A stretch of DNA of 36,150 nt from Candidatus Parvarchaeota archaeon (lineage in GTDB: Archaea; Nanobdellota; Nanobdellia; Parvarchaeales; Parvarchaeaceae), in contig JAGDXV010000012.1 in NCBI GenBank assembly GCA_023261805.1, forward strand, positions 1 through 36,150, read 5' to 3'. Every line of letters begins with the position of its first letter. Positions within the stretch are counted from its first letter, which is position 1. Shown piece by piece: positions 15,410 to 24,905 of this stretch. Made by a program: the position numbers and the translations under genes. Under the pieces are notes generated by a model. It ran no database searches, was not told where the DNA came from, and was given only the letters and a program-made list of their open reading frames with translations.

Positions 15410-15989
15410 AAAACAACTATCGATAGAACTCAGCAAGATAAACGAAGTGGAACACAAAAATGTTTCCCTAGAGCAGTATCAAACAGATCTGAAGACAGCT
15501 GTAGACTTTCTATATTTTTCCTATGAAAATGGTGGTATATACAACAAAACAGTTGCTGATCTTGGATGCGGAAATGGCATTCTTGGTATAGGCGCAAAAC
15601 TTCTTGGGGCAAAGACTGTAGATTTTTATGATATAGACCAAAAGGCTGTCGATGTATGCAGAGAAAATCTCCTTAATTTAAAAATAAAATCAGATGTTTA
15701 CAGATCTGATTTTTTTGATATAACTAAAAATTATGACACAATTATATCCAATCCTCCTTTCGGAATCAGAACAAGCTTTGATCCTGTCCTTTTTATAGAA
15801 AAAATAAAGACACTCTCTTCAAACTTTTTCATAATTTTGCCAGAAAACAAGAGAACATTAGAGATATCAGAGAGACAGGGCACGCTTCTACATAAACTTG
15901 GAGACATTTCCATACCTGCTTTTGCGAGCGGCCACAAAAAAGAAATATTTAAAGTTCCAGTTGTAATTGTATATAGTATTAAAATATGA
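15396..15989 (+). CDS. METTL5-like N6-adenine RNA methyltransferase
   Basis: A 197-residue SAM-dependent methylase of the COG2263/METTL5 group. LEQYQTDL near residue 25 is the family N-terminal signature, DLGCGNG at 55-61 binds SAM, DID near 78 contacts the ribose and NPPFG at 119-123 is the catalytic motif of N6-adenine methylases. Human METTL5 modifies 18S rRNA A1832; an archaeal homologue probably modifies the matching small-subunit rRNA site. The eukaryotic enzyme needs TRMT112; no such partner is in the window. It overlaps gatE by 14 bases and the surface protein gene by four. Confidence 0.85.
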   Translation: MIPNKKQLSIELSKINEVEHKNVSLEQYQTDLKTAVDFLYFSYENGGIYNKTVADLGCGNGILGIGAKLLGAKTVDFYDIDQKAVDVCRENLLNLKIKSDVYRSDFFDITKNYDTIISNPPFGIRTSFDPVLFIEKIKTLSSNFFIILPENKRTLEISERQGTLLHKLGDISIPAFASGHKKEIFKVPVVIVYSIKI

Positions 15990-18900
15990 TAAATGACAAA
16001 GCGCAGTCAATTCAGATATGGACATTGATAGTTGCGGTTATAGTCATAGCCTTGTTTTTAATTCTGACATATCTTTACAAAGCTGGTATCCTCTCTAACT
16101 TTAGCCTGGTCGGATCTATAATTAGTCAATTCATAACAGGTAACAAGGGAATATCAAAATTCGTGCAAGTACAGACATCATTCACACCATACAACTGTAG
16201 TTCAAGCGGCTGCATCCCCTTCAGTCAGCAATATAGCTCCTCATTCTGGTGGGCCGATTATGATGGGAATAACCAGTCAAATAGTTTGAACCAACCAATA
16301 AACTTCACAACAACTAGCGGAAACTTCTATCTTGTCATGTACCCTGCTGATGCAAATAACATGTTTTATTGCCCAACTCAAAGCATACAGAAATATCAAA
16401 CTGGTGAAAATTACAAGGTTAATTATGAAATCTGCGGAGTCACCTTCAGTGAAATTGGTCTGCCAAGCGGATATACCTGGATCGCAAGTTATAACAATAA
16501 AAATTACTCTTCGAATACTCCGTATATTCCTGTGATCGCAAACGCACCTGGTTACTATCATGTCTGGAATTTATCAAATACGTCCTTTAATCAGCAATTA
16601 ATGGAAGCTTGCACAACAACTTATAAAGCGGGAAGTAATGCTGTTGGAGTATTAGATTCAGCTGGATCAACAATAACTGTGCCATTCACATCCCAAACAA
16701 AATGCGAGAAGATAATTACTACCTTTACTGAAAGAGGATTACCACCGGGATATGAATGGCGTGTCAATTACACGTACTGGAATTCATCCTCAGGAAATAC
16801 AATAACTTTTTCCTCATTAAGTGGTCCGCATAACGTTAAAATCCCTGCTTTATCGAATTCTTCTAATAACTGCGTGAGTGTATACACGCCGCAAAATGTT
16901 CCGACAAGTGTACAGGCGGGAACACAGGTTTCAATAAACTTCAAAGAGGAGACATACTGCCTCACAACGTTTTACGAACAGAACCTTCCACCGGGATACA
17001 AATGGATGGTTAAATATGATAATCAGATGAATCAAACTGAAACCTCAGCCACTGGAAGCAAATTAACATTAAACGCTTCGGAGCCGTCCTCCTCGCTCAC
17101 AGCGAACGCATCAGTATCTGGCTTATACTGTGGAACATCCCCTTCCCAGACAGATGTCACAGTTCAGCCAGGTGGGACGTATACATTCAACTCATGGCTT
17201 TGTAACTCTACTTTCAACGAAACCGGTCTGCCGAGTGGAACAGAATGGAACATCACATATAACGGAATATACCAAACTTCAACTAGCCACATCATAAAAT
17301 TTGTTAACATGCCTTCTTCATCATCAAAACTTGAATTCACTGCTTATCCAATTACAGTATCGACCGGAACTACAAATGTAGCCACATTTTCAATAGTTGG
17401 CTATGGTGGACAGACGGGAGGAAATTCCGCCTCTTATAGCCTGCCATCGGGCGCCTCTCTGTACCTGTGCAATGGAGGGGACGGAAACGGCGCTTTATCC
17501 TCTTATTCCTGGTCTGCTGACACGACAACATTTTCATCGTATGCAAGCATTGGACATCAATCAGGCAATGTGTGCTCTGACTCTTCTTTATCTTCAGATA
17601 TAGCTGTTGGAGGAGCAGCGATAGATACGAACACTCAGTACTCATTACAAACCCAAACATTCAGTGGGAATTCGTTCTCATATACATATTCTGAAAGTCA
17701 AAGCGCAGATGTTATAATATCCATTTCATGTGGCTGGTATGAATGCAATTCAATTACAGTGCCAAGTGGATGTCAACAATTATTCTACCAAAATGGAGGA
17801 GACTACTATGAGACAACTTATATGGCAGTATGTTACAATCAGGGGGCCGGCTCATATAGATTAAGCGGCGGATTAAATGGAAATGGTTACGTCGCAGTTG
17901 GGGTATACTCATTTCCAATCTCAGCAAACACAATATCTAGTGCATATTACTATTATCCGAAGCCCTCTTCTGGTTACAATTACACCGGCCTAAACGAAAC
18001 AATCAATTATTCATTATCTGTAAAGCTCCCGCCAAATGTAGTATATTATGTTCCAATAACAATAACAAACAATCAAAACACTCCTACGCCATCCCCATTC
18101 CAGCAAGAGATATCTGTACCTTCATGGGTGATAAATGCATATGCCTCATCAAACATGCAAAACACAATCTTCTTTTATAAAAATGGACAGGTGATTCCTT
18201 CTTGGTTGGAAACATATTCCTATCCAAACAGCGCGACATACTGGGTCAAGTTAAGCAATAGCATACCTGCTGATTCATCTATAACAATATACATGGGCTT
18301 TGGATACACCTCCACTAATCTGTTTAATAATGTGAATGATGGAGAGGCGCCTCAATTATCGCCGGTGTATGGAGAATACAACGACATAGCTAATGTAATG
18401 AACAGCGGTTTAGAATATCAAATATATTATGATCCAAGCGGGGAATGCGACAGTCAAAATTATCAGAATCAGGTATATGCAGCTACATTAAATAATGGAG
18501 TAACAATAGAATCTTGCGCACCAATGTCCTCTTCAACAAATCCGTTTTATACAAACCTTGTAGGAAGCTCACAAGTTGTGAACGGGATGAACGAGAACAA
18601 TGTGATCTTTAACTATCAGGAAGACTATAAAAGTGGTGCTCCTTATCCAGATCCTCCAATTCCACCATTGGACACAACAAATTCCTGGATAATAAAGGCC
18701 ATAGGCTGGGCACAAGTCAACTCGCCAGTTACATTTTATGTAGGAACTGATGATGGAATTGCGCTTGGATACTCTACCTCTTCGTATTCTGGCAACGGCG
18801 CATACTGGCTTGGTGGAAGTTCAAATCCAAACAATATAATTTCCCAATGGCATGAACAAAGCTTCAGCGTGTTTTCAGGAGCAGAAAACACGATTGGTAC

Positions 18901-19744
18901 AGTTAGATTAGAAATGGATTATTATGAGGGACCCACACAGGCTTACACCGCTCTCTGGTCAAGTGCACCAGTTTATTATTATTCACCAACTGCCCCGCCA
19001 AATGGTGTTATGCCCTCTGTACAATTTGTTTATTCAGGCACTTTAACTACATTTACAGAGTCGGGTTTACCTTCAGGAGCGGGTTGGTGGGTTGATTATG
19101 ACGGTATCAATGAATCATCAACATCCACTTCAATATCTTTTAAAATTCCTCCTGGAACTTACTCTTTCTCAACAGGTGCATTTCAGGTTAGTAATAGCCC
19201 TACTTACACTCCGTCGCCGGCTTCAGGGAGCCTAGCAGCAGGAAACACCCAATCTATATCCTTCTCATCAGTTAACTACCCAGGAATACCTGCTTTTACT
19301 GCTTCCGGTAGCTGGGATGTGGACTCGACCAACACCCAAACCGATCCAGGAAACACAATAGTGCCTGATGGAAATTATGGTTATATAGAGACGAATGACC
19401 CTTGGACTGGACAGTGGGAAGAAGCACAATGGGAATGGACTTTTCCCTCTTCCTTAACTGGAACCTTTTATACTAAATGGTATGCCTATGATGCTTTAAA
19501 TGGCGGATGCCAGCCATTTGGAACTGATGTGACTCTCACGTGGGCGGCATCAAATGATGGTAGTACTTGGACTACTTTCTATACACACACGTTTACTTCC
19601 GCCGGCGGAGTAGGCTCCTCAACCTCTCCTGAGATCACAGACATCACCGGAACTTATAAGTACATAAGAGTTACACAGTACTCTAATACAGCAAATATGG
19701 CTTGCCCAATGATAACTTGGGTGGATGGGGTATGGGAAGATTAA
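15986..19744 (+). CDS. giant secreted or pilin-anchored surface protein with LPSG repeats, DUF2341-like and PA14-like domains
   Basis: A 1252-residue surface protein. One N-terminal hydrophobic segment (about 9-31) follows K5-A6-Q7-S8, a good match to a class III prepilin-type signal. Five repeats of the form TF-E-GLPSG-W-V-Y begin near residues 153, 246, 328, 409 and 1022. Residues about 687-830 (VPITITNN, then PSWLETY and ITIYMGFGY) resemble DUF2341, about 900-995 resembles a PA14 sugar-binding domain (FYVGTDDGIALGYS), and the end from about 1107 looks like a jelly-roll carbohydrate-binding domain. Ser/Thr/Asn/Tyr dominate, cysteines are scattered and there is no C-terminal anchor. An adhesion or host-contact role is inferred. 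Its ATG overlaps the methylase stop (ATGA). Such LPSG repeats are common in thermoacidophile surface proteins. Confidence 0.8.
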   Translation: MINDKAQSIQIWTLIVAVIVIALFLILTYLYKAGILSNFSLVGSIISQFITGNKGISKFVQVQTSFTPYNCSSSGCIPFSQQYSSSFWWADYDGNNQSNSLNQPINFTTTSGNFYLVMYPADANNMFYCPTQSIQKYQTGENYKVNYEICGVTFSEIGLPSGYTWIASYNNKNYSSNTPYIPVIANAPGYYHVWNLSNTSFNQQLMEACTTTYKAGSNAVGVLDSAGSTITVPFTSQTKCEKIITTFTERGLPPGYEWRVNYTYWNSSSGNTITFSSLSGPHNVKIPALSNSSNNCVSVYTPQNVPTSVQAGTQVSINFKEETYCLTTFYEQNLPPGYKWMVKYDNQMNQTETSATGSKLTLNASEPSSSLTANASVSGLYCGTSPSQTDVTVQPGGTYTFNSWLCNSTFNETGLPSGTEWNITYNGIYQTSTSHIIKFVNMPSSSSKLEFTAYPITVSTGTTNVATFSIVGYGGQTGGNSASYSLPSGASLYLCNGGDGNGALSSYSWSADTTTFSSYASIGHQSGNVCSDSSLSSDIAVGGAAIDTNTQYSLQTQTFSGNSFSYTYSESQSADVIISISCGWYECNSITVPSGCQQLFYQNGGDYYETTYMAVCYNQGAGSYRLSGGLNGNGYVAVGVYSFPISANTISSAYYYYPKPSSGYNYTGLNETINYSLSVKLPPNVVYYVPITITNNQNTPTPSPFQQEISVPSWVINAYASSNMQNTIFFYKNGQVIPSWLETYSYPNSATYWVKLSNSIPADSSITIYMGFGYTSTNLFNNVNDGEAPQLSPVYGEYNDIANVMNSGLEYQIYYDPSGECDSQNYQNQVYAATLNNGVTIESCAPMSSSTNPFYTNLVGSSQVVNGMNENNVIFNYQEDYKSGAPYPDPPIPPLDTTNSWIIKAIGWAQVNSPVTFYVGTDDGIALGYSTSSYSGNGAYWLGGSSNPNNIISQWHEQSFSVFSGAENTIGTVRLEMDYYEGPTQAYTALWSSAPVYYYSPTAPPNGVMPSVQFVYSGTLTTFTESGLPSGAGWWVDYDGINESSTSTSISFKIPPGTYSFSTGAFQVSNSPTYTPSPASGSLAAGNTQSISFSSVNYPGIPAFTASGSWDVDSTNTQTDPGNTIVPDGNYGYIETNDPWTGQWEEAQWEWTFPSSLTGTFYTKWYAYDALNGGCQPFGTDVTLTWAASNDGSTWTTFYTHTFTSAGGVGSSTSPEITDITGTYKYIRVTQYSNTANMACPMITWVDGVWED
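16442..17400 (+). repeat. four tandem LPSG-type protein repeats
   Basis: Units start at codons 153, 246, 328 and 409 of the surface protein, giving periods of about 93, 82 and 81 residues. Each opens with TF-E-x-LPxG-W-x-x-Y. A fifth unit at 19049 is separated by some 600 residues of other domains. The units have diverged at the DNA level. Confidence 0.75.
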
Positions 19745-20382
19745 AATATATAAAGATAATGACTTTGTTCATCGCTGCGATATCAATATTATCATTCTCC
19801 GTCGCATCTGCACCTTCTTATTCCCTTATACCAACTGATTTTGTAAATGTTGGAAATGTTACAAACATATACCATGAGTTTCCGACAATAGGAAGAGGCG
19901 TGGTTACTGCCTATGAATATGATCTTCCAAATTATGATAATTTTTCACTAGTTTACAGACTTGTAAACTATGCGAACTTTTCATCAGCTTCCGCTGCATT
20001 TTCATACATGTATAATATAAGCAACTACACTCGCTTTCCGGATCAAACGTTTGGGTTATCAAAAGTACCTGGATTTCATTCCTATGGCCTTCTTTTATCT
20101 CCAGCTGATAATAGCGCCTCGCTATTACTGTTCGTTAATGATTCTGTCGCAGAACTCGATGTTTTTGGAAACACTAGCAAAGCATCATACTATACTGTAC
20201 TCTCAGGATTTTCAAACAACTTTTTCGCATTAAGTATTCCACCAGGGCAGTTCGGTGCACCCAGCCAGAAAAGCGGTCTTAGCCAAAGTAGCATACTCTA
20301 TATAGGAATAATACTATCAGTAGTGATTATCGTAATATTCTTAGTGTATCTACGCTACAAAGGCAAGAGCCGCCCAAAGTGA
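19732..20382 (+). CDS. secreted protein with C-terminal membrane anchor, unknown
   Basis: About 216 residues. The N-terminus (MGRLKYIKIMTLFIAAISIL then SFSVASAPS) is a classic signal peptide, and the C-terminus (SSILYIGIILSVVIIVIFLV then YLRYKGKSRPK) is a membrane helix followed by a basic stop-transfer tail, so the middle faces outward. The exterior domain is rich in Ser, Asn, Tyr and Phe with several N-glycosylation-like sites. I chose the ATG at 19732, which follows a GG-rich tract and overlaps the giant surface protein by 13 bases; an ATG at 19702 would add ten residues ahead of the signal. Position suggests it works with, or anchors, the giant protein. No known family. Confidence 0.75.
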   Translation: MGRLKYIKIMTLFIAAISILSFSVASAPSYSLIPTDFVNVGNVTNIYHEFPTIGRGVVTAYEYDLPNYDNFSLVYRLVNYANFSSASAAFSYMYNISNYTRFPDQTFGLSKVPGFHSYGLLLSPADNSASLLLFVNDSVAELDVFGNTSKASYYTVLSGFSNNFFALSIPPGQFGAPSQKSGLSQSSILYIGIILSVVIIVIFLVYLRYKGKSRPK

Positions 20383-20564
20383 CATCCTTCCATAAATGAA
20401 TCCATAGGCTTCCGATTCTATTGAAATCTTACAGAAAAATGAGCAAGAAAGCTTCGACCTTGAGTATGTCAGAATTCCCCATAGCGTTTAGTTCCTGCTT
20501 CTTATGATCATGGCTCATAGACGAAGGATTTAATATAAGAAAAATTATACTTACTGGTGGAACG

Positions 20565-21305
20565 ATGGACAACAAAAAATATATAGAATCCGCAAAAAAG
20601 AGCATTAAGAAGGGATTATCGGTAGATGATCTAATAAAAAGGCAAATAGATGCTTTTGATGCACTAAATAAATCAGAAAATTTGCTCTTCAAAACCGCCT
20701 ATGATCTTCTGTTTCTTTATTTTCCAGAGGCAGCATCGCTCATCAAAGGTAAGGATCAATTTATAAATATGACGAAAAAAATAAACGAAATCTCATACGA
20801 CGAGATAGCAAGTATCCTTAAGATAGATAGCGAAAGCATGGGATATGATTTACCAAAAGAAGGAAAAGATACATTAAGCGCACTTATAAAAGAGATAGAT
20901 GAAATTGAAAAAACGAAGGCAGTGATCGAAGAAAAAATTGAAAATATAATGCAAAAAGAGTACCCGAATCTTCTTTCGATCGGTGAACCGATCCTTATAG
21001 CCAGATTGATAAGATTAAGCAACGGGGTTAGAAAACTCAGCATGATGCCATCATCAAAAATACAGGTACTCGGCGCGGAGAAGAACCTATTCTCAAAGGG
21101 CAGGAGACCAAAATATGGAGTAATATTTTCCCACCCTCTCGTATCAAACTCAAAAAATCCGGGTAAAGCGGCAAAAACTTTGGCTTCCACAATCAGCATA
21201 GCCGCAAGGGCTGATGTGATATCCAAAAAGGATATCAAAGATGAATTAATGAAAAGAATCTCAAAGATATCTAAGGAGAATCAAAATGGAAATTACAAGG
21301 GTTAG
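20565..21305 (+). CDS. Nop5/Nop56-like C/D RNP core protein lacking the N-terminal domain
   Basis: A 246-residue Nop5, whereas archaeal Nop5 is usually near 370-420. The coiled-coil domain begins almost at once (RQIDAFDALNKSENLLFKTA, about 27-46), passes through DEIASIL and SMGYDL, and leads to the Nop RNA-binding domain (IGEPILIARLIRLSNG, SSKIQVLGAEKNLF, GRRPKYGVIFSHPLV and AARADVIS). The roughly 110-residue N-terminal domain that grips fibrillarin in known C/D RNPs is absent, and no matching frame lies upstream. It guides 2'-O-methylation of rRNA and tRNA with L7Ae, C/D sRNAs and fibrillarin. GGTGG at 20555-20559 and TTTAATATA at 20529 support the ATG at 20565. It overlaps fibrillarin by 20 bases. 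Confidence 0.9.
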   Translation: MDNKKYIESAKKSIKKGLSVDDLIKRQIDAFDALNKSENLLFKTAYDLLFLYFPEAASLIKGKDQFINMTKKINEISYDEIASILKIDSESMGYDLPKEGKDTLSALIKEIDEIEKTKAVIEEKIENIMQKEYPNLLSIGEPILIARLIRLSNGVRKLSMMPSSKIQVLGAEKNLFSKGRRPKYGVIFSHPLVSNSKNPGKAAKTLASTISIAARADVISKKDIKDELMKRISKISKENQNGNYKG

Positions 21306-21960
21306 TGACTCAATATTTTGGATTAAAAATAAAAACAGGATCCTTGCAACTGTCAATCTTACCCCAGGAACATCTGTATATGGGGAAAGGCTCATCAAGC
21401 ATGGAAACAAAGAATATAGGGAATGGAACCCAAATAGGAGCAAGATAGCCGCTGCGATCTATAAAGGCTATAAAAATATTGAAATTCATTCAGGTTCTTC
21501 TGTACTCTATCTGGGGGCTTCCACCGGGACCACAGTTTCCCATGTATCGGATATAATTGGGGAGAAAGGAGTTGTATACGCTGTGGAAATATCAGAAGAG
21601 GTGGGAATTCCCCTCGTTTTACTGGCGGAAAAAAGAAAGAACATATTTCCTATAATTTATGACGCTGCAAAATTGGAAGACAAAAAGAACGATATAGAAA
21701 AGGTCGATTTCATATATCAGGACATAGCCCAGAAGAATCAGATAGAAATATTCATACGGAACGCCAATCTATTTCTCAAAAGCAATGGAAGAGGTGCAAT
21801 AGCAATAAAGGCAAGAAGTATAGATGTGCTCAAGAACCCAAATGAGATAATATATGAATCAATAAAGATACTCGAAAAGAGATTTAAGATAGAAGGATCT
21901 GTAAGACTTGATCCTTTCCAGAAAGATCATGCTATTATATTTGTATCAAATAAAAGATAA
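21286..21960 (+). CDS. flpA: fibrillarin-like rRNA/tRNA 2'-O-methyltransferase
   Basis: The SAM-dependent catalytic subunit of C/D-box RNPs. Its 224 residues are normal for archaeal fibrillarin: short N-terminal beta domain, then YLGASTGTTVSHVSDIIG (SAM motif I, L76-G81), VYAVEIS, IIYDAAKLED, VDFIYQDIAQ and AIKARSID with the catalytic Lys and Asp, ending PFQKDHAIIFV. GGAG at 21275-21278 is seven bases before the ATG, inside the nop5 reading frame, so the two are made from one mRNA. Because nop5 lacks its fibrillarin-binding domain, the contact between these two proteins must differ from the known one. Confidence 0.95.
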   Translation: MEITRVSDSIFWIKNKNRILATVNLTPGTSVYGERLIKHGNKEYREWNPNRSKIAAAIYKGYKNIEIHSGSSVLYLGASTGTTVSHVSDIIGEKGVVYAVEISEEVGIPLVLLAEKRKNIFPIIYDAAKLEDKKNDIEKVDFIYQDIAQKNQIEIFIRNANLFLKSNGRGAIAIKARSIDVLKNPNEIIYESIKILEKRFKIEGSVRLDPFQKDHAIIFVSNKR

Positions 21961-21970
21961 TATCTAAAAT

Positions 21971-22342
21971 TCATTGACTGATTATTCCTGCAATCTCATC
22001 GGCAGCTTTCTTTGCTTCAAGGAGTATTAAACCATAGTTTGAACTTGGATCGAGCATTATTGAAAGAATTGCATTTTCACCAGCTTTTATTGCAACAACT
22101 CTGGTATCACTTGATTCTGCAATAACTCTTTCAAAAGATTTTGACCCTAATGATTTAAGCGCCGTCTCTGCAGATCCAACCATTGAAGCAAGCATCGCAG
22201 CAAATGTATTTTCATTGATTCCGCTTGGAATAAGTGAGACCATCGGAATACCATCGGCCGATATAATAGATGAAGCCTTAATTCCGCCGATCGTTCCTAA
22301 ACGCTCCAAAACTGCTTTTAATGTTTCGACCTTTGTACTCAT
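21971..22342 (-). CDS. roadblock/LC7 domain protein (MglB/CvnB-like)
   Basis: A 123-residue single-domain protein of the roadblock/LC7 fold: helix KVETLKAVLERLGTI, strand ASSIISADGIPMVS, central helix ENTFAAMLASMVGSAETALKS, strands FERVIAES and TRVVAIKAGENAILSIML, and a final helix. Such proteins dimerise and bind Ras-like GTPases; MglB of Myxococcus is the GTPase-activating partner of MglA. Here the GTPase is encoded 31 bases upstream in the same direction, so a GTPase-regulator pair is likely. It is the last gene of the four-gene operon. Whether it activates hydrolysis or merely binds cannot be seen. Confidence 0.85.
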   Translation of the reverse strand: MSTKVETLKAVLERLGTIGGIKASSIISADGIPMVSLIPSGINENTFAAMLASMVGSAETALKSLGSKSFERVIAESSDTRVVAIKAGENAILSIMLDPSSNYGLILLEAKKAADEIAGIISQ

Positions 22343-22373
22343 ATCAATTTTAAACTTCTTTTACTATTTAAAT

Positions 22374-23576
22374 TTATCTTAACTGCTCAAATAGTAAAGA
22401 CAGTGCTTTTTCCACCTCCTCTCTCTTTAACTGGGTTGGCTGATTCGGATCTATTCTGGACAAATCAACCGCTGTAGTCTGTGTTATCGGAGCGTCCTTT
22501 CCAAGATGCAATTTATCCTTTATCTCATCCAAAGACAACGCCCCTGGCAAATCAAATTTATTGGCGACGACGACTATTGGTAATCCATAAGCCTCTGTCT
22601 TCCTGAGCATCTCGATCGCCCTCGGAAAGCCTTCTGGTCTTGTAGCATCAACAACTAAAATAACACCTATTGCCTCACCACCTAATAGTTTAAGAAGCGG
22701 ATCAAAACGCTCCTGACCAGGAGTACCAAACATATCAGCTATATATCCCCTGAAATCTAGCGTCCCATGATCAAGGGCTATGGTTCCTCCTAATCTATCC
22801 ACACTGACTGCATTGGGACACGCTGAATGAATAAAGGAACTTTTCCCCGCGTCTGTAGGACCTGTGACAAGGATCTTTGGTATATATAACTTTATACCCC
22901 CAGGTTTCAAGGCTTTGAACAATGCGGAGGTCATCGCACGCTGTTCCTTTATCCAATCGCACTTTATAACTGCGAAATATTGACCAAAAATTACGCGCTT
23001 CTCAACACCTTTTATATCTATAACTGCATTCGCTCTGGTGAAAATGCTATTGACGCCGTTTCTGTCGTAATCCCACTCTGTGAACAGCAAAACACCGGTT
23101 CCTTTCTTTTGATTGATCTTTGATGAAATCAGATCAATAAGTTTAGCGGCAGTATCAAAATCGAACTGGTCGACTATTAATGACAATGAATCGACTACAA
23201 CCAAATCGTAGCCCTTCTCGATCTCATTTCCAACCTTTGAAAAGATCTCCTCCTTATCAGCAGGATTCTGAATAACAACAACATTTTCCGAGCCACTTTG
23301 CTGTATCCCCGTTATATTGCTGTACGCATCAAGTATTTTTAGGTCATCCGAAACTGTAAAATCGTATTCTTTCATCTCAGTAAGATAAGAGGAAGGAGAT
23401 GTACGATTAAGCAAAAGAAGAACCTTTTTCTTGTTCAAAAGATTGTTGTGAATTATCTGATAACCGAAGACTTCATTTCCAACCGCAGGGGAAGCGGAGA
23501 AAACCACAATCTTCTTATCCGGTAAGCCCCTCAAATCCTCATCCAATCTTTCAATCCCAAAAACCGGATCCGCCAT
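22374..23576 (-). CDS. RecA/KaiC-like domain fused to a Ras/Arf-like small GTPase
   Basis: A 400-residue two-domain protein. Residues about 1-225 have a RecA/KaiC core: FGIERLDEDLRGLPDKKIV, a Walker A position SASPAVGNEVF (27-37) that has lost its Lys and Thr/Ser, and a Walker B GYDLVVVDSLSL (122-133). Residues about 230-400 are a small GTPase of the COG2229 type: G1 GPTDAGKSS at 239-247, a T265 switch I, G3 DMFGTPGQERFD at 281-292, G4 NKFD at 339-342 and G5 TTAVD near 367. The GTPase looks intact, the ATPase dead. COG2229-type GTPases occur with roadblock proteins in Streptomyces conservons, and a roadblock gene follows here. A signalling or cell-organisation role is inferred. Confidence 0.85.
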   Translation of the reverse strand: MADPVFGIERLDEDLRGLPDKKIVVFSASPAVGNEVFGYQIIHNNLLNKKKVLLLLNRTSPSSYLTEMKEYDFTVSDDLKILDAYSNITGIQQSGSENVVVIQNPADKEEIFSKVGNEIEKGYDLVVVDSLSLIVDQFDFDTAAKLIDLISSKINQKKGTGVLLFTEWDYDRNGVNSIFTRANAVIDIKGVEKRVIFGQYFAVIKCDWIKEQRAMTSALFKALKPGGIKLYIPKILVTGPTDAGKSSFIHSACPNAVSVDRLGGTIALDHGTLDFRGYIADMFGTPGQERFDPLLKLLGGEAIGVILVVDATRPEGFPRAIEMLRKTEAYGLPIVVVANKFDLPGALSLDEIKDKLHLGKDAPITQTTAVDLSRIDPNQPTQLKREEVEKALSLLFEQLR

Positions 23577-23610
23577 AAAAATTACACATGCTCCTCAAAT
23601 TTAAAGGTTT

Positions 23611-24288
23611 TTACAGGGGAGACCACGATAACACCTCCTTTTCTGTCCCAGTCACTGTGAAATATCTCTTTGCATCGTCTCCAAGTTTGAGTTTGATTAT
23701 CGCATCCATCAATGATTTCGCTGTCTCGCTGACGTCTGGGGAATGCATGCTTTCGTCCAGAGAGAAGAAACCGGTTACACCGCTTAATTTCGATCTACCA
23801 CAGACAAACTGCAAGAATCTGAAAAGAGTAGCATTGTTATTGTACAGGAGCAGAGCCGATACAGAATCCATTATGTTTATCACCGTGTAGCCATCCTTGA
23901 CAAAATCACTATTTATCGTGGACATCGCTACAGATAACCCTGTCAAATCCAAAGGACCATTCAAAACTTTTATGTAAGGGGTATCCGATGTCTGTGCCAT
24001 TATGTTTCTGCTGAAATCATCTATCAGTTTAAAAGAAGAACCTAATGAGGAAGACACACTAGGAAAAGACTTTGTGATGCTTGATACCACTTCTTCCGCT
24101 GATTTAGAGATGCTGATATAAAGTACAGCTGCATTACCTTTCAATGCATTCGCCGCCAAGCTATAAAGAAACTGATCTTTTCCACTCTCTTTATCGCCGA
24201 GAACGAGATAGTTTTTCCTAGTGCTTAATCCGCCTGTCAGGCTATCAAATGATTGAAAACCTGTTAAAATGTTTGACATAATTATCAC
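23611..24288 (-). CDS. RecA/KaiC-like ATPase with altered P-loop
   Basis: A 225-residue single RecA/KaiC-type domain. ILTGFQSFDSLTGGLSTRK is the typical KaiC opening; the P-loop GDKESGKD (31-38) keeps the Lys but has Asp where Thr/Ser binds magnesium; YTVINIMDSVSALL is Walker B. No second KaiC domain and no obvious autokinase residues. Translation may start at GTG 24288, which overlaps the upstream stop (GTGA), or at ATG 24279 three codons later. It sits between an unknown protein and the RecA-GTPase fusion, and may pair with the fusion's dead RecA domain. Ligand binding or weak ATP use is likely; the function is unknown. Confidence 0.75.
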   Translation of the reverse strand: MIIMSNILTGFQSFDSLTGGLSTRKNYLVLGDKESGKDQFLYSLAANALKGNAAVLYISISKSAEEVVSSITKSFPSVSSSLGSSFKLIDDFSRNIMAQTSDTPYIKVLNGPLDLTGLSVAMSTINSDFVKDGYTVINIMDSVSALLLYNNNATLFRFLQFVCGRSKLSGVTGFFSLDESMHSPDVSETAKSLMDAIIKLKLGDDAKRYFTVTGTEKEVLSWSPL

Positions 24289-24905
24289 AAAATTTTAACT
24301 TTTATTGACTTTATACCGAGCATAACTCCATCTACAACTGGTGAAACATCAACAACTATTTCCCCCTCATTATCTTTCTGAAATGAAATATCCATCTTTG
24401 CACTGCTCTCGACGGAGATCGTTATTATTGGAAATAAATATGTAACTAGACTCTTGAAGAACGCCTTCGAATTTCCTTTCTTCACAATTATGTTGATATC
24501 ATCCCCTGTCCCTTCAGGCGTCTCCACGATCTTGAAAGCCTCAGTGTCGATGACTATATCTATAATTCTATCATGAGGAAGACCTAAAAGATCCTCTATA
24601 ATTTCATCTATATCCTCATTAGTTCCAAATCTTTTTGAAACATTCTTCTGCTGGTCTCCTTGTGTAAAATCTATCCTTAAATCAACATATTGGACAAAGT
24701 TCAGCCTAAGAAGTATATTGTATATGTCCTTTGCATAGATCCTTATTGGATGAACCGTCTTTATCTTAATGCTTCCATCTTCTGACCTCTCCATGCTTAT
24801 ACTGAGTTTCTTGTAATCGAGAAGGCTCTGAAGAGCTTTTAATTTTCCTGTGTGATCGTACAAGTTCTTTATATCCGCTGCAACATCAAAAGCACTAACA
24901 TCCAT
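24285..24905 (-). CDS. unknown protein, first gene of the GTPase-roadblock operon
   Basis: A 206-residue soluble protein that I do not recognise. It has an N-terminal helical part (FDVAADIKNLYDHTGKLKAL), a central alpha/beta region with many charged residues and a C-terminal part rich in beta strands (ITISVESSAKMDISFQ, GEIVVDVSPVVDGVMLGIKS). No membrane segment, zinc site or P-loop is visible. Its stop overlaps the GTG of the RecA-like gene by four bases, so the two are coupled. A TATA element TTTAAATA at 24926-24933 lies 25 bases before its ATG and would drive the whole four-gene unit as a leaderless mRNA. Confidence 0.7.
   Translation of the reverse strand: MDVSAFDVAADIKNLYDHTGKLKALQSLLDYKKLSISMERSEDGSIKIKTVHPIRIYAKDIYNILLRLNFVQYVDLRIDFTQGDQQKNVSKRFGTNEDIDEIIEDLLGLPHDRIIDIVIDTEAFKIVETPEGTGDDINIIVKKGNSKAFFKSLVTYLFPIITISVESSAKMDISFQKDNEGEIVVDVSPVVDGVMLGIKSIKVKIL

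Follow-up and report, generated by a model that had tools for sequence, protein, structure and literature searches.

A Nop5 without its fibrillarin-binding domain throughout Parvarchaeota, and a box C/D sRNA that may still guide 23S rRNA methylation

The Nop5–fibrillarin locus

The DNA analysed here (the window, 36,150 nucleotides in length) forms contig C18 in a draft assembly of 546 kb, estimated as 88.7% complete, from a member of Candidatus Parvarchaeota. It contains a short Nop5 gene, preceded by putative expression signals and overlapped by the gene for fibrillarin, and the features of this locus are as follows.

20529–20537, + strand: TATA-like element TTTAATATA (as TTTAATATAAG, 20529–20539), 36 nt before the Nop5 ATG; sequence and pattern count
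20557–20561, + strand: GGTGG before the Nop5 ATG, a possible ribosome-binding site judging by the sequence
20565–21305, + strand: Nop5 (aNop56) without the N-terminal domain (NTD), 246 amino acids; PF01798, PRK14552, PDB alignment and AlphaFold2 (AF2)
20565–20621, + strand: lead helix (predicted helix 3–17), conserved in all Parvarchaeota; AF2 secondary structure
20622–20960, + strand: coiled-coil helices (predicted helices 20–52 and 98–132); AF2
20967–21284, + strand: C-terminal Nop domain with the L7Ae/k-turn-binding signature (MPSSKIQVLGAEK...PKYGVIF); PF01798 and alignment A2
21286–21960, + strand: fibrillarin, 224 amino acids, full length; PF01269 (profile positions 8–225 of 227, E = 2.2e-81) and NF003276, above cut-off

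The Pfam Nop profile (PF01798) covers residues 32–229 of the Nop5 open reading frame (E = 7.7e-34; profile positions 3–219 of 228, above cut-off), which places the C-terminal, snoRNA-binding Nop domain in this protein. Residues 8–234 match positions 125–371 of the 417 in the NCBIfam model PRK14552, and the score of 145.7 bits falls below the full-length equivalog cut-off of 452 bits. The Nop5 chains of P. furiosus and other archaea in the PDB align only from chain residue 124–137 onwards. Taken together, these alignments confirm that about 105–124 N-terminal residues are missing relative to full-length archaeal Nop5, in agreement with the initial annotation, which had put the loss of the fibrillarin-binding domain at roughly 110 residues.

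An AF2 model of the protein, computed from a 45-row alignment (pLDDT 90.4, pTM 0.82), comprises helix 3–17, a coiled coil formed by residues 20–52 and 98–132, and the C-terminal domain, and its top match among solved folds is PDB 3nvi (TM 0.75). The α/β fold of the NTD (residues ~1–124) is absent from the model, as it is from the alignments and from the upstream reading frames. The coiled-coil dimerisation domain, by contrast, is recovered both in the PDB Nop5 alignment and as AF2 helices, and dimerisation is predicted. The lead helix can be aligned to the segment directly preceding the coiled coil in NTD-bearing Nop5 and, on that alignment, is the equivalent of the last helix or hinge that joins the NTD to the coiled coil in the full-length protein; the hinge of P. 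furiosus Nop5 comprises residues 116–122 (PMC7089733).

Reading of all three frames at 20301–20666 revealed no NTD-like sequence upstream of Nop5, and the Nop5 frame itself is open for just 19 codons before the ATG, so that neither an upstream frame nor a frameshift is in evidence and the earlier reading of 20383–20564 as free of a matching frame holds. A 9.7-bit match to an NTD profile near the ATG was dismissed, as it is not conserved among relatives. Over the full 36 kb of the window, the + strand contains the motif TTTAWATA at two positions.

Fibrillarin, which had been described as intact and overlapping, is both: its first 20 nt are shared with the end of the Nop5 gene, and its K-D-K-H catalytic tetrad (match columns K37, D130, K159 and H199) is 100% conserved in the Parvarchaeota family, nearly all members of which carry Nop5 and fibrillarin as an overlapping or adjacent gene pair. 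The genome also encodes L7Ae (G000:C26:18069–18335; PF01248, E = 2.4e-26), for which the nearest NCBIfam model is eL8 at 117 bits, below the cut-off of 134.6.

Other genes in the window were characterised by inspection of their sequences. A cluster at 21971–24905 (− strand) appears to encode a Roadblock-type protein and a KaiC-like ATPase, and at 22374–23576 (− strand) a RecA/KaiC-like domain seems to be fused to a small Arf/Rab-like GTPase. At 15986–19744 (+ strand) lies a gene for a secreted-looking protein of 1,252 amino acids with repeats of the motif F.E.GLP.G..W...Y.G.

Distribution of the short Nop5

The order to which the window's genome belongs consists of one family (f1, Ca. Parvarchaeota; three genera), represented by 32 genomes. 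Nop5 is present in 30 of these, and every one of the 28 genes with a readable start has the short N-terminus. The start carries a conserved motif, MDNxxFIxxARKxIKxxLSVDDLI, and nearly all members fit MDN..(F/Y)I..A(R/K)K.(I/V)K..LS.DDLI.

Across the class, the length of the NTD is graded from about 80 residues to none. Nop5 was found in 129 of 281 class genomes that are at least 80% complete. It is absent from about half of the sampled genomes, mainly those of family f5 and its relatives, and nearly as many are without full fibrillarin. Loss of the NTD recurs in at least 15 families of the class besides Parvarchaeota, NTD-less Nop5 being found in f1, f3, f14, f17, f22, f31, f37, f38, f53, f56, f64, f65, f66, f72, f73 and f74, and also in one Diapherotrites and one Micrarchaeota record. 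The short forms retain 31–45 residues directly before residue 32, which correspond to the segment linking NTD and coiled coil in full-length Nop5. On a combined Nop5 and fibrillarin tree (112 rows), the NTD trait requires 12–13 changes, two of which are forced by well-supported branches alone.

Differential conservation of fibrillarin revealed no single surface that is lost across all NTD-less lineages. A family-specific change was observed in the helix after strand 2 (residues ~103–110; the window's gene at 21286–21960 and 26 family orthologues), from SPRVxRDL to SEEMGxxL. Elsewhere this helix reads S/A-P-R-V-x-R-D/E-L, with two near-invariant arginines, and in nearly all Parvarchaeota it reads S/A-E-E-M-G/A-x-x-L; the neighbouring family f34 keeps K-R. 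The change is a possible trace of rewiring in Parvarchaeota; it does not mark NTD loss in general, because other NTD-less families mostly retain the arginines.

A box C/D sRNA matched to 23S rRNA

A box C/D sRNA of ~60 nt, with C/D and C′/D′ boxes and guides whose target lies opposite the fifth nucleotide counted from D or D′, is encoded on contig C30 of the window's genome (− strand, ~19,340–19,415). It was first found by pattern in a related genome (G025), and then, by means of its guide, in the window's genome and nine further genomes of the family. At no more than one mismatch, it occurs in 11 of the 32 Parvarchaeota genomes, including two of the eight near-complete ones, and it was not seen at that threshold in the most complete genome (G017); some relatives may have lost it or diverged. 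Matches to the canonical C/D pattern are rare in Parvarchaeota. A strict pattern scan of the window's genome gave zero matches and a relaxed scan also missed the sRNA, owing to terminal boxes that deviate from the canonical form (C, ATGATTC; D, ATGA, for example). The terminal boxes are off consensus in most members (G000:C30 and loci L172–L182). At the two loci that were inspected (L172 and L181), the sRNA is found where a pair of transporter genes has its 3′ end, and it may be processed from the transporter mRNA.

The terminal stem of the sRNA shows compensatory change: in an alignment of ten distinct rows (A4), 94% of cells are paired and three of five pairs have changed on both sides, and 0 of 500 shuffles performed as well. 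The pair beside the tandem G·A of the k-turn changes from G–C (three genomes) to U–A (five genomes), which, given two U·C exceptions, is suggestive only.

The D′ guide (AGUGAACACCUU) pairs over 11–13 nt with the A-loop of 23S rRNA (AGGUGUUCACU), which sets the U of GG-U-GUUC at the fifth position from D′; by comparison with E. coli, we take this U to be U2552. The D guide (AAGGGUAGCU) pairs over 9–10 nt with AGCUACCC, 114 nt upstream of the A-loop site, and its target presumably corresponds to about U2438 in E. coli numbering. The assembly of the window's genome lacks 23S rRNA, and its guides were checked against the 23S rRNA of relatives; with that of a member of the same genus (G001), there is one mismatch in the A-loop pairing and one G–U at the D site.

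Orthologous sRNAs were found in families with NTD-less Nop5 (f31, f53 and f74) and in families with NTD-bearing Nop5 (f69, f27, f24 and f7). Since f31, f53 and f74 are NTD-less, the guide has been retained without the NTD in four families. The Parvarchaeota guides form 9–10 Watson–Crick pairs with their own 23S rRNA, compared with 6–7 with that of f24, f53, f67 and f69, and the D guides of other families are adapted to their own 23S rRNA, GGAGUAGCU with AGCUACUCC in f7 and GGAGUAACU with AGUUACUCC in f69. The D guides of the NTD-less f31, f53 and f74 form 7–8 pairs with class-type 23S rRNA. The D′ guides of other class members address U2552 or, in f31, f53, f69, f27 and f24, the adjoining segment of the peptidyl-transferase centre, CCGGGGAUAAC. 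As read from these pairings, the guides co-vary with 23S rRNA between lineages, and their pairing at D+5 sites is maintained by selection.

The peptidyl-transferase ring of Parvarchaeota 23S rRNA itself deviates strongly from a sequence that is otherwise near-universal. In nine genomes from the three genera (L169, 2911–3060; L170, L171 and L268–L273), positions 2443–2454, in what is presumably E. coli numbering throughout, read UGGGCGUAAGAG (G2447C, A2448G and C2452G), and in most of them positions 2497–2509 read CCACAGUCUUUGG (A2503U, U2504C, G2505U and C2507U), with G2582A compensating C2507U. The deviant ring, common to nine of nine genomes, was placed on the Rfam model of the archaeal LSU in a high-confidence alignment. 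It is mostly canonical in relatives outside Parvarchaeota, and family f6 shares 2447C and 2448G. A literature search found no report of it, and it is possibly more surprising than the loss of the Nop5 NTD.

A proposed C/D RNP without its usual anchor

To our knowledge, the NTD of Nop5 is the fibrillarin anchor in every characterised archaeal C/D RNP. Gagnon and colleagues (2012) reportedly abolished dimerisation with fibrillarin by deleting the NTD of the M. jannaschii protein. The main fact contrary to a functional RNP without this domain is that, by NMR, fibrillarin of P. furiosus has the Nop5 NTD as its exclusive binding site (PMC7089733); the recovery of the sRNA from only 11 of the 32 family genomes and the A-loop mismatch with the same-genus 23S rRNA also count against it. 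In Parvarchaeota, the NTD has been lost but the enzyme has been kept together with a matching guide RNA, which argues that fibrillarin is held in some other way.

On balance, it seems probable that the NTD-less Nop5 belongs, throughout the lineage, to a pared-down C/D sRNP that still guides 2′-O-methylation of the peptidyl-transferase region of 23S rRNA (at U2552 and ~U2438). In such a particle, the coiled coil would be retained for dimerisation, the C-terminal Nop domain would grip L7Ae and the k-turn, and fibrillarin, co-transcribed and catalytically intact, would be recruited without the NTD. The most likely route would be through contacts of fibrillarin with the lead helix or the base of the coiled coil and with the guide–target duplex, made on a partly rewired fibrillarin surface. 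Both the methylation by this RNP and the docking place of fibrillarin are what we infer from the conserved components. The initial annotation had offered two consequences of the truncation, a minimal RNP with another contact or the loss of guided methylation; the former is favoured by the persistence of L7Ae, of a fibrillarin with its catalytic residues and of a guide sRNA co-evolving with its 23S target, and the same sequence evidence makes the latter unlikely. For the class as a whole, we lean slightly towards the reading that many nano-sized archaeal lineages independently dropped the NTD, with fibrillarin positioned by the lead helix, the coiled coil or RNA, and that the domain is non-essential for guided methylation.

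Alternatively, a separate adaptor, too diverged for an NTD profile or unrelated to the NTD, might bridge Nop5 and fibrillarin. A profile (A1) was built from 28 NTDs of the class, and scans with it took in 46 genomes. It recovered six of six held-out NTD-bearing Nop5s (E ≤ 9e-10), and its weak best matches in the PDB were the canonical NTDs of S. solfataricus and P. furiosus Nop5 (E = 0.004–0.07). Among 21 Parvarchaeota and 19 other NTD-less genomes, it returned no stand-alone NTD with a match better than E = 0.01, nor was the fibrillarin-holding domain found with it elsewhere in the window's genome; the separate gene for the missing domain that the initial annotation proposed to look for did not turn up in these genomes. 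The NTD is weakly conserved (mean column identity 28%), however, and the profile is blind to the long, unrecognised N-termini of f2, f4, f8, f9, f12 and f13, as a diverged adaptor would require. Given these scans, the lack of any new conserved feature within the Nop5–fibrillarin gene pair and the very small size of the genomes, we regard an adaptor as unlikely, although it is the strongest of the alternatives. The one recurrent weak match, to the C-terminal part of the DnaG primase, was rejected as a stand-alone NTD. This part of archaeal DnaG (G000:C21:29292–29360) weakly resembles the first NTD strands (IIGTRGAFLINDKYEILGKIPY), probably by chance.

It is somewhat less likely again that Nop5, L7Ae and the sRNA form a fibrillarin-free, Prp31-like RNP that serves as an rRNA folding chaperone, with fibrillarin acting alone or elsewhere. 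Prp31, a strong fold match, has a Nop domain and needs no fibrillarin to bind 15.5K and U4 RNA, and guide pairing could be selected for chaperoning alone. However, the fibrillarin and Nop5 genes remain paired in nearly every member of the family and the catalytic tetrad is invariant, both of which speak against a particle that dispenses with the enzyme. Moreover, in all organisms studied the A-loop is methylated at U2552, G2553 or both (PMC7994747), and the D′ guide places its fifth nucleotide on the first of these two positions.

That the gene is decaying and the C/D system is being lost, as has happened in about half of the class, where Nop5 and fibrillarin are missing, is very improbable. 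Such a course would fit the 152 of 281 class genomes without Nop5, the mere 137 of 281 with fibrillarin above the family cut-off and the rarity of canonical C/D patterns in Parvarchaeota, but the Nop5 core, the fibrillarin tetrad, the promoter, the start motif and the sRNA guides are clearly constrained across three genera. Finally, a wrong gene start or an assembly or frameshift artefact can be set aside with near certainty, because all readable Nop5 genes of the family, from 28 independent genomes, start at an equivalent place, which neither chance nor assembly error explains, and here the upstream frame is absent and a TATA-like element lies immediately 5′ of the gene.

A search of the open-access literature for Nop5 or fibrillarin together with DPANN found no published report of NTD loss in Nop5. 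A natural and repeated loss of this domain, combined with a guide–target system that has been kept, implies either a different anchor or a dispensable NTD, and both bear on the way in which the enzyme of the RNP is positioned at its substrate.

Comparison with known systems

The total length of Parvarchaeota Nop5 is similar to that of Archaeoglobus fulgidus Nop5 (1NT2; 258 amino acids). The latter, which was reportedly crystallised in complex with fibrillarin, keeps the NTD, and it is the coiled coil that is shortened. A short chain by itself therefore does not indicate that the NTD has been lost.

Prp31 of the U4 snRNP resembles Parvarchaeota Nop5 in being a Nop-domain protein that lacks a fibrillarin-binding NTD and binds an L7Ae homologue on a k-turn RNA. 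It differs in being eukaryotic and spliceosomal, in its extra C-terminal parts and in having no fibrillarin gene as neighbour, and its identity to the Nop5 described here is ~20%. The C-terminal domain of Prp31 is absent from the Nop5 open reading frame, in the 246 residues of which PF01798 is the sole domain found, and the neighbouring gene is fibrillarin.

With the archaeal Nop5/aNop56 proteins of P. furiosus, S. solfataricus and M. jannaschii, the Parvarchaeota system shares the coiled coil, the C-terminal Nop domain, the neighbouring fibrillarin gene, L7Ae and a C/D sRNA; it differs in that Nop5 lacks the whole α/β NTD and keeps only the last helix or hinge. The same domain content is found in PDB 3nvi, in which an artificially N-terminally truncated P. 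furiosus Nop56/58 is bound to L7Ae and box C/D RNA. That truncation is a laboratory construct, whereas the one in Parvarchaeota is natural and fixed in the lineage.
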